Positions 47,547-52,545 of a stretch of 64,000 nucleotides of DNA are shown here, one piece after another (the first letter of the stretch is position 1; each line of letters begins with the position of its first letter). The notes below the pieces were generated by a model. The model worked only from the letters and a program-made list of their open reading frames with translations, had not been told where the DNA came from and made no database searches. This stretch comes from an uncultured Sphingomonas sp. (lineage in GTDB: Bacteria > Pseudomonadota > Alphaproteobacteria > Sphingomonadales > Sphingomonadaceae): assembly GCF_937871615.1 (NCBI RefSeq), contig NZ_CALMPA010000045.1, forward strand, positions 212,046 through 276,045, read 5' to 3'. The translations under genes and the position numbers were made by a program.

Positions 47547-48188
47547 TCAACGATCCCGGCTGAGTTCGTTCACCTCGCTCATGATCGCATCAAGCACGGT
47601 CCCGCTGCCCTCGCTCTTGTGGCCGGTGCGAGGCGTCATATCCTTGCCGTTCATCAACGCTTCCAGCGCAACGCGGCCGCGCGCGACGCGGCTTTTGATC
47701 GTGCCGACCGCGACGCCGCAGATATCCGCGGCTTCCTCATAGGCGAAGCCACCGGCGCCCACCAGAATCAGCGCCTCGCGCTGCGGCTGTGGCAAGTGCA
47801 TCAGCGCGCGCTGCATATCCGCCAGTTCGACATGCTTGTCCTGCCCGGCGGGCGCGGCGAGCAGGCGATCGGCGACCAGATCATCCCATTCGCCCTTGAA
47901 ACGCGCGCGCCGCATCTGAGAGAGATACAGGTTGCGCAGGATGATGAAGGTCCAGGCGCGCATATTCGTACCGGCCTGGAAGCGTTTGCGCGCGGCCCAC
48001 GCCTTGAGCAGCGTCTCCTGCACGAGATCGTCGGCGAGGTCGCGATTCCCCGACAGGGAACGCCCAAAGGCACGCAGGTGCGGGATCACCCGCGCGAGTT
48101 GCTCTTTGAATTCGGGATCGGAGAGCGATACGTGCTCGCCCTGCGCATCGGCGCCCGCGCCATCTGTCTGAGATGGATCCTGCGTCAT
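47547..48188 (-). CDS. ecfG: general stress response sigma factor EcfG (ECF15 type)
   Basis: A 213-residue extracytoplasmic-function sigma factor. Region 2 (SLSGNRDLADDLVQETLLKAWAARKRF... with NMRAWTFIILRNLYLSQMRRAR) and region 4 (LPQPQREALILVGAGGFAYEEAADICGVAVGTIKSRVARGR) match alphaproteobacterial EcfG. It directs polymerase to GGAAC-N16/17-CGTT promoters when NepR is removed by phosphorylated PhyR. The 25-residue charged C-terminal tail is usual. It is downstream of phyR and a 47-residue membrane protein on the same strand. Confidence 0.95.
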   Translation of the reverse strand: MTQDPSQTDGAGADAQGEHVSLSDPEFKEQLARVIPHLRAFGRSLSGNRDLADDLVQETLLKAWAARKRFQAGTNMRAWTFIILRNLYLSQMRRARFKGEWDDLVADRLLAAPAGQDKHVELADMQRALMHLPQPQREALILVGAGGFAYEEAADICGVAVGTIKSRVARGRVALEALMNGKDMTPRTGHKSEGSGTVLDAIMSEVNELSRDR

Positions 48189-48300: not shown

Positions 48301-48444
48301 CTAAAGCCGGGTGAACACCACGATGGCAAAGATCACGATCACGAGCGCGAGCGAATAACCAAGGATATACCGCGTCATATGCGGTGTGGCCCCGGCCCTC
48401 GCCTCCTCCGTGCTTCGATGGATCGGTTCCTGTTCGTCTGTCAT
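48301..48444 (-). CDS. 47-residue single-pass membrane protein between phyR and ecfG
   Basis: Reading the minus strand, ATG (48444-48442) opens a 48-codon frame ending TAG at 48303-48301. The translation starts with an acidic stretch (TDEQEPIHRSTEEARAG) and ends in a hydrophobic helix (about residues 26-44: ILGYSLALVIVIFAIVVF) with Arg-Leu at the end, a neat tail-anchored or single-pass protein. It lies between phyR and ecfG on the same strand, 42 bases after phyR. No family is recognised. Location suggests a link to the stress-response locus. Confidence 0.65.
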   Translation of the reverse strand: MTDEQEPIHRSTEEARAGATPHMTRYILGYSLALVIVIFAIVVFTRL

Positions 48445-48486: not shown

Positions 48487-49284
48487 TCAAAGGGCGGGAA
48501 CGGTCGATTGATCGAAGAACAATGCCTGGCTGATCGCGGCCTTCACCGTCGAACGCTGGAACGGTTTGGTAATCAGGAAGGTCGGCTCCGGTCGTTCGCC
48601 CGTCAGCAACCGTTCGGGAAAGGCGGTGATGAAGATCACCGGCACGCGGAATTCGGCGAGAATATCCTTCACCGCGTCGATGCCGGAGCTGTCGTCGGCC
48701 AATTGGATATCGGCCAGCACCAGGCCGGGGCGATCCTCCATCGCCAGCGCAACGGCCTCGTCACGGGTCACCGCCACGCCGGTCACATCATGGCCGAGAT
48801 CGCGGACGATCGTTTCCACGTCCATCGCGATGATCGGTTCATCCTCGATAATCAGCACGCGCGCGCGCGTCTGCCGCTCGATCTCCGCCATCGCCTCGCT
48901 GACCAGATCCTCGACCTCATCGGCCCCGACGTCGATCAGATAGGCCGCGTCCTCCGGGGTGAAGCCTTCCATCGCGGTAAGCAGCAGCGCTTGCCGCGAA
49001 AGCGGGGTCATCCGCGCGAGCCGCGCGCGCGCCACCATTTCCTGCTCGTTGGCGTCGCCCGCCTCCGGCAATTCGTCGATATGCGATGATGCCCAGATCG
49101 CCTGAAACGTCCGGTAAAGGGCAAGCCGGGGGTCCACATCGCGCGGAAACTCCTCCGGCGCCGCGACGATCGCCTCCAGCGTGGCGCGGACGTATTTGTC
49201 GCCGTGGTGCTGGCTTCCGGTCAACGCGCGGCCATAACGCCGGAGGAATGGAAGGTGCGGCGCGAGCTGTTGTCCAAGCGACAT
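48487..49284 (-). CDS. phyR: PhyR, response regulator / anti-anti-sigma factor of the general stress response
   Basis: A 265-residue regulator with an N-terminal sigma-like domain (residues 1-135; PHLPFLRRYGRALTGSQHHGDKYV and LSRQALLLTAMEGFTPEDAAYLI). The C-terminal receiver domain has acidic pocket EDEP (147-150), phospho-acceptor Asp192 in LVLADIQLADDSSG, the Thr in IFITAFPERLL and Lys in LITKPFQ. When phosphorylated it binds NepR and frees EcfG. The start at 49284 gives the family N-terminus with GGAG 10 bases upstream. It is divergent from nepR. Confidence 0.97.
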   Translation of the reverse strand: MSLGQQLAPHLPFLRRYGRALTGSQHHGDKYVRATLEAIVAAPEEFPRDVDPRLALYRTFQAIWASSHIDELPEAGDANEQEMVARARLARMTPLSRQALLLTAMEGFTPEDAAYLIDVGADEVEDLVSEAMAEIERQTRARVLIIEDEPIIAMDVETIVRDLGHDVTGVAVTRDEAVALAMEDRPGLVLADIQLADDSSGIDAVKDILAEFRVPVIFITAFPERLLTGERPEPTFLITKPFQRSTVKAAISQALFFDQSTVPAL

Positions 49285-49415
49285 GGGCGTTATTTTCTCC
49301 GTACCAAACCGGGCCTGCGCGAACGCCGCCCCAACGATCTCAAAACCTCTAACGTATCGACATGCAATCCCGTATCGCAGGCCCACGCCGCTTTGATGAT
49401 TTTGTTGTTGGGAGT

Positions 49416-49440
49416 GGAACCAACGAGCGCGTCTTTGGTT
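49416..49440 (+). promoter_or_regulatory. EcfG-type promoter for nepR
   Basis: GGAAC (49416-49420), 16 bases, then GGTT (49437-49440), one mismatch from GGAAC-N16-CGTT. It points at nepR about 80-110 bases downstream in the phyR-nepR divergent region. Autoregulation of nepR by EcfG is well known in this family, which supports the call. Confidence 0.65.
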
Positions 49441-49521: not shown

Positions 49522-49713
49522 GTGCGGTCGGGCGGTTCCGGGGGGCAGGTGTTGAGTTCGGACGATCAGGCAAAATTACCGCATCGAGAAAAGAACGCGA
49601 CGATTCCCGCAAAGGATCGTGACATGGGCTCCGCGTTGCGCTCGATCTATCAGCAAACCATAGAAGAAAAGATCCCGGACGAGATGCTGCTGCTGCTCGG
49701 GAAGCTGGATTAG
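49522..49713 (+). CDS. nepR: anti-sigma factor NepR
   Basis: A short anti-sigma factor of up to 63 residues that binds EcfG until PhyR~P displaces it. The conserved two-helix core is complete: GSALRSIYQQTIEEKIPDEM and LLLLGKLD at the very C-terminus. The start is uncertain: GTG at 49522 gives 63 residues, GTG 49549 or TTG 49552 lie near a G-rich Shine-Dalgarno-like stretch (GGGGGGCAGG). An EcfG-type promoter precedes it. The kinase-like gene follows after 13 bases in the same direction. Confidence 0.92.
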   Translation: MRSGGSGGQVLSSDDQAKLPHREKNATIPAKDRDMGSALRSIYQQTIEEKIPDEMLLLLGKLD

Positions 49714-49726
49714 GACGCCGATCGCA

Positions 49727-51319
49727 ATGGCTGGGAAGGTGGATCGTCCCGGCTCCGCAACGGCTTTCGCGGCACTGATGATCGCCCGCTGGCCGACCGG
49801 GGCCAAATTATTCCTCATCCTGAGCATCGCGCTGCTGCCGCTGGCGATGATCGCCGTTTTCGCAACGCTGCAAACCACGCGCAACGCCGATAGCGAATCG
49901 CGCGCCGGCCTGCGCCTCGCCTCCGCCGAAAGCAGCCGGGCGATGGCGATCGAGCTTATCGGCGACATGACCGCGCTACGCTCCGCGGTCAACGCGCTCG
50001 CCGCGGACGCGCAGGATGCGCCAAGTTGCGCGCGCGTGAAGGGGGTGTTCGCGCAGCTATCGACCAACGGCACGCGTTTTGTGATCTTCGATCGCGAAGG
50101 CCGGGCATTGTGCGGCACGCCTTTCGTCGGCGCGCGCCATATCGGACGGCAGGCCGAGGGCGCGACGGTCGCAGCCCGCGTGCAGCCGGAACGCGGCCTT
50201 TCACTCGGCGTGGCAGGGACCCAACATCGCCTGTTCGGCGCGGCCTTCTTTCCCAGGGAATTCCTGGCGGCGGTCAGCCGACCGAGCGGAATGCCGCACC
50301 CCTATCAACTCGTGCTGATGCATGGCGGGCATCAACTGATCGTCGATCACCTGCCCCGCGAATCCGCGCTCGAACGCCGCACCACCAACCGAACCAATCT
50401 GGGCTTTGCCGATCTCGCGCTGGAAATGCAGATGCGCAGTACGCCGATCACCTCCTCGCTGGTGATCGCGTTGCTGTTGCCGCTGTTGATGTGGGCGGCG
50501 GCGGCGGGCGTTTCCTGGTTCGTCGTCGATCGCCTGCTGGTGCGGCCACTGCGCGATCTGCGCGCCGGCATGGCGGCGCTGACGCCCGGCGAGGAGCCGG
50601 ACCCGGCGCTGCTCCGCGCCCTGCCCGCGCAGGAAATTCGTGAACTCGGCGACACGCTGCGCGCGCTCACCCGCACGGTGGCCTTGCACGAGGCCGGGCT
50701 GGCGGAGGGGCTGGTGCGACAAACACGTTTGACGCGTGAAGTGCATCATCGCGTGAAAAACAATCTTCAGGTGATCTCCAGCCTGATAAACCTCCATGCC
50801 CGCAGTGCGCGAACCCCCGACGCGTCACAGGCCTATGCCTCGATCCAGCGCCGTGTCGATGCGCTCGCCGTGGTGCATCGCAATCACTTCGCCGAAATGG
50901 AGGAAAATCGCGGGCTTGGCCTTCGTCCCGTCATCAGCGAACTCGCCACCAATATCCGGGCGACCGCGCCAGAGGGCAGCCGGCTGAGCATCGCGCTTGA
51001 TCTCGATCCCTTCTATGTCGGGCAGGACGTGGCGGTTCCGATCGCCTTTCTCGTCACCGAGGCGGTCGAACTTGCGCTGGCCGACGATGCCCAGGCCGAG
51101 ATTCGCATCTCGCTGAAGCCGGATGGCGAACATGACGATCGCGCGATATTGCGCGTTTCCTCCACCGCGCTCATCCCGAGCGCGGCCCTGTCCGCCCGGC
51201 TCGAACAGCGTTATGGCCGCGTGATGGAAGGGCTGTCGCGGCAACTTCGCGCGCCGTTGCAATATGATCCGGAAAACGGCGCCTATGCCATCACCATTCC
51301 GGTCATCGGCCGCGAATAG
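49727..51319 (+). CDS. HisKA_2/HWE-type sensor protein of the PhyR locus with degenerate ATPase domain (PhyP-like)
   Basis: A 530-residue membrane sensor: helix ~22-47, a periplasmic domain to ~240, a second helix (~243-265), HAMP-like linker, then HisKA_2 with REVHHRVKNNLQVISSLINLH (His340/His341). The ATPase region is odd: the N-box reads FLVTEAVELAL with no Asn, and no DxGxG box follows in DDRAILRVSSTAL. That fits the sphingomonad PhyP, a PhyR phosphatase encoded at the phyR locus, rather than an active kinase. It is co-directional with nepR. Phosphatase function is inferred. Confidence 0.85.
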   Translation: MAGKVDRPGSATAFAALMIARWPTGAKLFLILSIALLPLAMIAVFATLQTTRNADSESRAGLRLASAESSRAMAIELIGDMTALRSAVNALAADAQDAPSCARVKGVFAQLSTNGTRFVIFDREGRALCGTPFVGARHIGRQAEGATVAARVQPERGLSLGVAGTQHRLFGAAFFPREFLAAVSRPSGMPHPYQLVLMHGGHQLIVDHLPRESALERRTTNRTNLGFADLALEMQMRSTPITSSLVIALLLPLLMWAAAAGVSWFVVDRLLVRPLRDLRAGMAALTPGEEPDPALLRALPAQEIRELGDTLRALTRTVALHEAGLAEGLVRQTRLTREVHHRVKNNLQVISSLINLHARSARTPDASQAYASIQRRVDALAVVHRNHFAEMEENRGLGLRPVISELATNIRATAPEGSRLSIALDLDPFYVGQDVAVPIAFLVTEAVELALADDAQAEIRISLKPDGEHDDRAILRVSSTALIPSAALSARLEQRYGRVMEGLSRQLRAPLQYDPENGAYAITIPVIGRE

Positions 51320-51369
51320 CCACGATCAAAGACGGTGGCGCCATCAGCCGACTTTTTTTCGCGACGATC

Positions 51370-51394
51370 GGAACCCGGCGGATTTGGGATCGTT
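51370..51394 (+). promoter_or_regulatory. consensus EcfG promoter of the candidate stress sRNA
   Basis: GGAAC (51370-51374), exactly 16 bases, CGTT (51391-51394): a perfect match to the EcfG consensus, located 50 bases after the PhyP-like gene stop and immediately before the C-rich hairpin RNA. The expected transcription start is about 51400. Confidence 0.8.
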
Positions 51395-51399
51395 CTGAC

Positions 51400-51501
51400 C
51401 TGCGGATAGCGAATATTTGCCCCCCCGCTCTCGCTATCCAAGTCACAGGCCCGAAAGCGTCGTCCCCTCCCCCCCGGTGACGCTTTCGGGCCTTAAATTT
51501 T
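51400..51501 (+). ncRNA. candidate EcfG-controlled small RNA with two C-rich hairpin loops
   Basis: About 100 nt between a consensus EcfG promoter and a T-rich tail. Hairpin 1: GGATAGCGA (51404-51412) with TCGCTATCC (51431-51439), perfect 9-bp stem, 18-base loop containing seven consecutive C. Hairpin 2: 14 perfect pairs, GGCCCGAAAGCGTC (51448-51461) with GACGCTTTCGGGCC (51479-51492), 17-base loop containing CCCCTCCCCCCC, followed by TTAAATTTT. There is no open reading frame of note. The C-rich loops include CCTCC, complementary to GGAGG Shine-Dalgarno sequences, as in GsrN- and suhB-type alphaproteobacterial sRNAs. Confidence 0.75.
51448..51501 (+). terminator. intrinsic terminator of the candidate sRNA
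   Basis: A 14-bp perfect stem (51448-51461 with 51479-51492) followed at once by TTAAATTTT (51493-51501). It is the best intrinsic terminator in the window and doubles as the second C-rich hairpin of the sRNA. Confidence 0.8.
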
Positions 51502-51583
51502 GTCCCGTCATCGTCTTTCGGCGCCATCCCGGTTTGCGCTCTCGGCGGAAATCGACCATCTGCCCCGCGCAGGAGGACGCACG

Positions 51584-51718
51584 ATGTGCAAGGTTTTCGG
51601 ATTGATGGCGGTTACGGCGGCGGTGCTGCTGGCAGGGTGCAACACGATCGAGGGCATCGGCAAGGACGTGTCCTCCGCGGGCAAAACCGTTTCCAAGACG
51701 GCGCACGACGCGAAGTAA
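51584..51718 (+). CDS. entericidin A/B family lipoprotein
   Basis: A 44-residue lipoprotein: a short signal (MCKVFGLMAVTAAVLLAGC) with lipobox LLAGC, then NTIEGIGKDVSSAGKTVSKTA, the entericidin repeat-like amphipathic helix. AGGAGG lies 7 bases before the ATG. Entericidins are small envelope lipoproteins; EcnB is stress/stationary-phase induced in enterics. Here the gene follows the EcfG-controlled sRNA and its terminator, so read-through or a separate promoter would be needed. A longer frame from 51500 is rejected. Confidence 0.88.
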   Translation: MCKVFGLMAVTAAVLLAGCNTIEGIGKDVSSAGKTVSKTAHDAK

Positions 51719-51762: not shown

Positions 51763-52545
51763 TTATTCCCCGGCCACCACGTCCGCGTCCACCGTTGCAG
51801 CCGCTTCGCGCGAGCGCCCGCGCTCGGTGAACCAGATGCCGATCAGCGCCAGTTCGTAGAGAATGCACAAGGGTATCGCGAGCAGAAGCTGCGATCCCAC
51901 GTCCGGCGGCGTGAGCACCGCCGCGATCGCGAAAGCTGCGACGATCGCATAACGCCGCACGCTCTTGAGCTGCTGGCGGGTGACAATACCGGCGCGCTCC
52001 AGCAGCATCAGCAGCACCGGCAGCAGGAAGGCAATGCCGAAGCCGAACAGGAATTGCATGATGAACGACAGATAATTGCCGATCGCCGGCAATGCTTCCT
52101 GATGCACGCCGCCGATATTGCCCTGAAAGCTCAGCAGGAAATGCAGCGCCATCGGCACCGCGATGAAATAGGCCATCGCCGCCCCGATCCCGAACAGCAC
52201 CGGGGTCGCAAGCAGGAACGGCAGCAGCGCCCGCTTCTCCTTGCGGTAGAGGCCGGGCGCGACGAACTGCCATAACTGGTTGGCGATCACGGGGAACGAC
52301 ACCATCGTCGCGGCGAAGAAGGCGACCTTTACCTTCACGAAAAACGCTTCGAATATCTGGGTGTAGATCAGCTTGGTCTGCCCCGCCTGCAACAGCGGAC
52401 GGACGAGAACCGCGAAGATGTCCTCCGCGAAATAATAGCAGACGAAGAACGCCACGATGAGCGCGCCGATGCAGTAAAGCAACCGCCGACGCAGTTCGAT
52501 CAGATGGTCGAGCAGCGGCGCCTTGCTGTCGTCTATCTCCTTCAT
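51763..52545 (-). CDS. tatC: Sec-independent protein translocase subunit TatC
   Basis: A 260-residue six-helix membrane protein that recognises twin-arginine signal peptides. It begins with DSKAPLLDHLIELRRRLLYC, whose HLxELRxR motif is the TatC signature. The conserved loop FWQF-like sequence (NQLWQFVAPGLYRKEKR) and VLTPPDVGSQ are also present. Last gene of tatA-tatB-tatC; its ATG overlaps the tatB stop (ATGA). Confidence 0.97.
   Translation of the reverse strand: MKEIDDSKAPLLDHLIELRRRLLYCIGALIVAFFVCYYFAEDIFAVLVRPLLQAGQTKLIYTQIFEAFFVKVKVAFFAATMVSFPVIANQLWQFVAPGLYRKEKRALLPFLLATPVLFGIGAAMAYFIAVPMALHFLLSFQGNIGGVHQEALPAIGNYLSFIMQFLFGFGIAFLLPVLLMLLERAGIVTRQQLKSVRRYAIVAAFAIAAVLTPPDVGSQLLLAIPLCILYELALIGIWFTERGRSREAAATVDADVVAGE

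Follow-up and report, generated by a model that had tools for sequence, protein, structure and literature searches.

A conserved RNA with two C-rich hairpin loops in the stress locus of Sphingomonas is probably an EcfG-dependent small RNA

In a window of 64,000 nucleotides from an uncultured Sphingomonas sp. (contig NZ_CALMPA010000045.1, positions 212,046 to 276,045), an RNA element of two hairpins with C-rich loops lies behind an EcfG-type promoter in the locus of the general stress response (GSR), between a gene of the PhyP/PhyT type and tatC (Table 1). Comparison across genomes suggests that the element is probably a trans-acting, EcfG-dependent small RNA (sRNA) of this response. It is most likely similar in logic to GsrN of Caulobacter crescentus, and it may act on mRNAs with G-rich ribosome-binding sites, possibly on that of nepR, which encodes the anti-sigma factor. 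The element is apparently undescribed. For Sphingomonas and its relatives this yields a widely conserved sRNA candidate with a promoter, a structure and a nameable target, alongside a different candidate in other genera of the family, and it opens both a post-transcriptional arm of the stress response in sphingomonads and possible feedback through NepR to direct testing.

The promoter, both hairpins and the tail lie, correct to the base, where the original prediction, made from the letters of this window, had placed them; its overall interpretation, a stress-induced sRNA that pairs with ribosome-binding sites, is partly supported. The region 51400-51505 folds with -46.8 kcal/mol (z = -7.75), a stability reached by none of 200 shuffles. 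The GGAAC-type promoter pattern occurs three times in the window versus 0.99 expected, and 8 of 100 shuffles reach three; taken alone within one window the pattern is weak evidence, and conservation is the real test. The counts below are for 120 listed loci, out of at least 120 collected by a pattern scan for the loop sequence. As these loci were chosen by their loops, loop identity among them proves nothing. Directly upstream of the element, GGAAC-N15..18-GTT is present in 118 of the 120, the other two having GGAAC with TTGT, versus 80 of 14,856 other same-strand windows of 60 nt from these loci and the window. Among divergent members read by eye, 16 of 17 have GGAAC (the exception, L191, has GAAAC). 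The published GSR motifs are GGAAC-N16-CGTT in Sphingopyxis granuli TFA (PMC7083833) and GGAAC-N17-20-GTT in S. melonis Fr1 (PMC6599016).

A DNA search with 151 bases finds a match in 95 of 298 genomes of the family (E <= 0.01, its own included). Thirty aligned matches contain 35 invariant columns, 26 of which fall within hairpin 1, and RNAalifold recovers the two hairpins from this alignment, from which the covariance model R1 was built. R1 matches the window, which is among the sequences used to build it, at 51402-51504. In the order, 124 of 397 genomes contain a match at E <= 0.01 and 112 at E <= 1e-5 (own included), and 51 of the matching genomes belong to the window's genus (in G434, half an element stands at a contig end). 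In a sample of the class, 3 of 387 genomes match; two are from the window's genus, and the third, from outside it, has E = 0.001. The 12 of the 124 matches with E above 1e-5 were excluded; seven of these genomes carry a second type of RNA, R2, discussed below. One of the matches above this threshold, in G151, is real as judged by its promoter and tatC, whereas L199 and L200 are without the promoter. The genome searches with R1 miss members, and counts of absence are upper bounds: G042 and G087 are unmatched in the genome search, yet their loci L204 and L213 are scored by R1, and L394 and L397 reach E <= 1e-9 when the loci are supplied directly. Judged by 80 titles, the 120 listed loci come from Sphingomonas, Sphingosinicella, Sphingomicrobium, Stakelama, Hephaestia, Sphingorhabdus and Parasphingopyxis, the remaining titles being unclassified or coarsely classified bacteria. 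The only genome of the same genus shown without an R1 match is G421, with no such RNA between phyP and tatC (L203:1420-1500, L359).

For covariation, 93 members (from an input of 94 loci, window included) were fitted to R1, so that this alignment leans towards the model. In it, 98.1% of the cells are paired, and in 21 of 26 pairs both positions vary; none of 500 shuffles is as high, and sliding the partner leaves 30-46% paired. In hairpin 1, 8 of the 9 outer pairs have changes on both sides with 99.8% of cells paired, and in hairpin 2 both-side changes occur in 13 of 15 pairs. Both loops stay C-rich. In distant genera the stem of hairpin 1 is rewritten, for example to AGGACGGC..GCCGTCCT or CAGAATGGC..GCCATTCTG, and the C-rich loop and GGAAC promoter are kept. 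Because the loops stay C-rich where hairpin 1 is rewritten, they, and not the stems, are likely to be the working part. The most conserved part is the 5' hairpin with its C-rich loop, as would be expected of a GsrN-like RNA. Judged by these comparisons, the element is not a chance structure, and the predicted conservation of both stems and C-rich loops behind an EcfG-type promoter is borne out in related genomes, by covariation as well as by R1 matches.

The original prediction also assigned the element to the PhyR-NepR-EcfG locus, immediately behind the sensor gene, and synteny agrees with this. In 108 of the 120 listed loci the element is preceded by a PhyP/PhyT-type gene on the same strand, and in 103 a convergent tatC lies downstream, with order and strand without exception where found; PhyR is present near the element in 86. 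In some divergent genera (L184-L187, L195-L198), the element is not close to ecfG, nepR or phyR, and the latter four loci suggest that it can lie away from the GSR locus. These four contain R1-type RNAs with the promoter, and no genes of the window's neighbourhood and no entericidin gene were found within about 4 kb of them.

Table 1. Features of the RNA element and its surroundings in the window
Feature	Position	Strand	Remarks
ecfG	47547..48188	-	Pfam Sigma70_r2 and Sigma70_r4_2
phyR	48487..49386	-	Pfam PhyR_sigma2 5.5e-26, Response_reg 3e-12
EcfG-like promoter GGAAC-N16-GGTT of nepR-phyP	49416..49440	+	sequence
G6 run, nepR ribosome-binding region, candidate target site	49540..49545	+	complementary to the C-run of either loop
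nepR, anti-sigma factor	49552..49713	+	start TTG 49552 or in-frame GTG 49549; Pfam NepR 1.4e-6, above cutoff
phyP/phyT-type HisKA_2 gene	49727..51319	+	upstream of the RNA; Pfam HisKA_2 7.8e-18; HRVKN motif in translation
EcfG-type promoter GGAAC-N16-CGTT	51370..51394	+	GGAAC 51370-51374, 16-nt spacer, CGTT 51391-51394, read from sequence
Predicted sRNA, ~100 nt	51400..51502	+	ends inferred from -10 element and terminator; fold, covariance model R1
Hairpin 1	51404..51439	+	9 bp: GGATAGCGA 51404-51412 / TCGCTATCC 51431-51439, loop ATATTTGCCCCCCCGCTC
Hairpin 2, terminator-like stem	51448..51492	+	14 bp: GGCCCGAAAGCGTC 51448-51461 / GACGCTTTCGGGCC 51479-51492, loop GTCCCCTCCCCCCCGGT
Tail TTAAATTTTG, imperfect U-tract	51493..51502	+	read from sequence
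Entericidin-family lipoprotein gene	51584..51718	+	Pfam Entericidin 9.7e-8; downstream of the RNA, possibly reached by read-through
tatC, convergent neighbour	51763..52545	-	Pfam TatC 2.1e-73

The sigma factor gene is named ecfG because it adjoins phyR and nepR. The features for identifying PhyP/PhyT were drawn from PMC5898713, which gives PhyP the new name PhyT and describes it as a phosphotransferase that is essential in strains whose GSR is functional. Between phyR and ecfG, a possible membrane-protein frame of 47 aa lies on the minus strand (48301-48444), ending MTRYILGYSLALVIVIFAIVVFTRL.

The loops had been predicted to pair with ribosome-binding sites of the GGAGG type. Loop 2 does contain CCUCC, but the constant feature of the loops is a C run, which is best matched by G5-G6, and such a run precedes nepR. 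In the window, the 120 listed loci and three more, 90 of 124 sources have a nepR match, and 66 of these 90 have a run of five or more G (G5+) no more than 25 nt before a possible start of the gene. At the starts of neighbouring genes G5+ is found in 2/97 (tatC), 1/86 (tatB), 5/37 (ecfG) and 0/90 (entericidin). Since several candidate starts per locus were allowed for nepR and one for the control genes, the region-wide figure is fairer: 72 of 90 sources versus 7.5 expected from windows of the same length in the same loci. Most of the nepR starts that follow a G-run are TTG or GTG codons, for which a strong ribosome site may be needed. Among 30 genomes from R2 genera, 27 of them identified by an R2 match and three by eye, nepR has G5+ in the region in 9 and at the start in 5. 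The count at the start (5 of 30 versus 66 of 90) differs with a Fisher p of 6e-8, not corrected for phylogeny. In G421, the genome without the RNA, the nepR site is GGGG instead of G5-G6.

These observations make nepR the leading candidate target of the sRNA, although the step at nepR is put forward only tentatively. In the proposed scheme phosphorylated PhyR would bind NepR and free EcfG, leading to transcription of the RNA from 51370-51394. Hairpin 2 would terminate the transcript at about 100 nt, with some transcription perhaps continuing into the entericidin gene, and each of the two hairpin loops would expose a C run. The loops could pair with G-runs in ribosome-binding regions of mRNAs and alter translation, most simply by blocking it; if nepR were blocked, the inhibitor of the sigma factor would be removed, resulting in positive feedback. 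Rather doubtful as a whole is the wider proposal that the sRNA of the sphingomonad stress sigma factor silences its own NepR via the conserved G-run, in a double-negative loop within one locus, and that R1 and R2 fill the post of the GSR sRNA in different genera.

Several observations weigh against this scheme, and most of them concern nepR. That R1-type and R2 genera differ in G5+ could be due to shared ancestry alone, and the G-runs could simply be ribosome-binding sites. Duplex energy by itself does not set nepR apart: 25 of 89 nepR leaders rank among the top 5% of background windows, the median lying at 15%, and ranking targets by energy alone was given up as weak. The nepR G-run of the window is predicted to be paired within the leader (unpaired probability <= 0.04); over 61 nepR leaders the median unpaired probability is 0.34 and only 4 exceed 0.5. 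A conserved cis-structure as the cause of the G-run was considered too and is unsupported, as the run is paired in 56 of the 61 leaders, but its partners differ and lie near the 5' end in only 9. In Caulobacter, GsrN co-purified nepR mRNA (interacting GGGGGGCG), with no evidence of regulation of sigT/NepR reported (PMC5869019). It is quite possible, if short of an even chance, that the element is an EcfG-dependent sRNA for which nepR is no target, the G-run being an ordinary ribosome site and other stress mRNAs being repressed or activated as by GsrN, which acts on katG (PMC5869019). A G6 run at ribosome-site distance before ATG is indeed common in the window's own genome (169 versus 40 for the reversed pattern), and a CpaC-like gene, a further target lead, has GGAGGA or GGAGGG in place of the G6 in L333 and L334, and GGTGGA in L332. 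An ordinary ribosome site sits less well with the rarity of G5+ at the neighbouring tatC and tatB (3/183 combined) and before nepR in the R2 genera (5/30). That the two C-rich loops, constant across many genera, serve as a decoy, binding a protein or mimicking the anti-Shine-Dalgarno sequence so that translation is damped globally during stress, is very unlikely; the C-run of hairpin 1 is flanked by TG before and GC after in 30/30 aligned sequences, and since these letters are also kept, specific pairing is suggested. Hardly credible is a mere terminator of phyP or tatC, between the ends of which the hairpins sit, as this requires neither the EcfG motif conserved in 118 of the 120 listed loci nor a covarying first hairpin.

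A serious rival, though improbable, follows from a gene that the original prediction overlooked. On the same strand, 3' of the RNA, an entericidin gene is found in 90 of the 120 listed loci, at a median of 204 nt after the loop start, and also in 19 of 23 divergent R1-type loci. As this is expected of a leader and weighs against a trans-acting sRNA, a leader role must be considered: the element would form the 5' leader of the entericidin gene and might act as a transcription attenuator, with the EcfG promoter being that gene's own and hairpin 2 setting the read-through. In 88 of the 90 loci no strict EcfG motif stands between element and gene, the U-tract is imperfect, and 57 of the 90 entericidin leaders contain GGAGG, AGGAG or GAGGA, with loop 2 containing CCUCC. 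However, promoter, hairpins and loops are kept in the 30 listed loci without an entericidin match, among them 19 in which the tatC match starts at most 145 nt from the loop start (entericidin match in 0/19). A terminator-like hairpin stands between promoter and gene, and the search for entericidin in R2 loci gave no match (0/27). The promoter of the RNA may feed the entericidin gene via read-through; a terminated sRNA plus some read-through would fit loci with and without the gene.

The R2 RNA occurs in other genera of the family, where a different RNA follows GGAAC-N16-CATT in 17 of 25 phyR loci (examples are L366-L382, e.g. L375:1280-1400 on the minus strand). It consists of a hairpin with an invariant CCCCCTCCCGTCCA followed by a terminator, the loop of which is generally not C-rich. 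R2 shares with R1 the GGAAC promoter, an invariant C-rich loop, a terminator and a position on the divergent upstream side of phyR, but it differs in its sequence, in lying near phyR and not after phyP, and in having no entericidin match nearby. At E <= 0.001 the R2 model finds 149 of the 397 order genomes, with none of the 112 R1 genomes among them, so that no genome among the 397 has R1 at E <= 1e-5 together with R2. R1 reaches the R2 RNA of L378 at E = 0.16.

Among known systems, GsrN resembles the R1 element in its EcfG/sigT-type promoter, in its 5' hairpin with a C-rich loop as the most conserved part, in the typical location of its homologs near the GSR locus, and in that an mRNA of nepR with a G-run, here the candidate target, is among the RNAs co-purified with it (PMC5869019). 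The R1 element differs in having C-runs in both hairpins and, often, an entericidin gene downstream; the two were compared by description, and R1 matches only the 3 of 387 class genomes given above. EcfG-regulated sRNAs are reported to be widespread in Alphaproteobacteria, with Erythrobacter litoralis lacking an apparent gsrN-like gene (PMC5869019). Rfam gives nothing at the gathering score for the whole window, and three chance-level matches at E <= 10 for 51300-51600. The suhB relation raised by the original prediction fell away, as the covariance model RF00519 gave no match there even at E <= 10, and membership in this family was rejected. Like the predicted R1 sRNA, suhB RNA and SuhB of S. 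granuli are of alphaproteobacterial origin; SuhB of strain TFA, an sRNA that binds a 5' UTR with Hfq, differs in being described as 61 nt long and growth-rate-controlled (PMC6563040). CcsR1 (RF02791), stress-induced according to its Rfam description, likewise has a hairpin loop with a CCUCC..CCC stretch, but membership was rejected, as its model matches only hairpin 2, at E = 4.8 and with 11.0 bits versus 65.3 for the gathering score. Two transcriptome papers on sphingomonad EcfG looked upstream of annotated genes, and the term sRNA is absent from their main texts (PMC6599016, PMC7083833). I found no EcfG-dependent sRNA of sphingomonads described in titles and abstract openings, with subscription literature mostly outside this scope.

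As for other targets, genome-wide sites of G6CAA in 61 genomes (188 versus 32 reversed-control matches) were discarded, as most fetched sites are unlike starts of shared genes. In 23 of 30 genomes (L329-L358; own copy L305:176-189) a candidate start of the CpaC-like gene mentioned above, a putative pilus secretin gene, is preceded by G5+, but the gene was picked for its G-run, any candidate start was counted, and the run also encodes two glycines of the preceding gene; as a target it is a lead only.

Two weak relatives of the RNA (R1 E of about 1e-4), at L206:3562-3670 and L400:2545-2643, carry a GGAAC promoter motif and are followed by an entericidin gene, the relative in L206 lying away from tatC. 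Among eight loci scanned with Rfam, three of them with an R2 RNA, only L206 matched, to CRISPR repeats: CRISPR-DR4 repeats lie at L206:2415-2744, near the RNA of genome G024.
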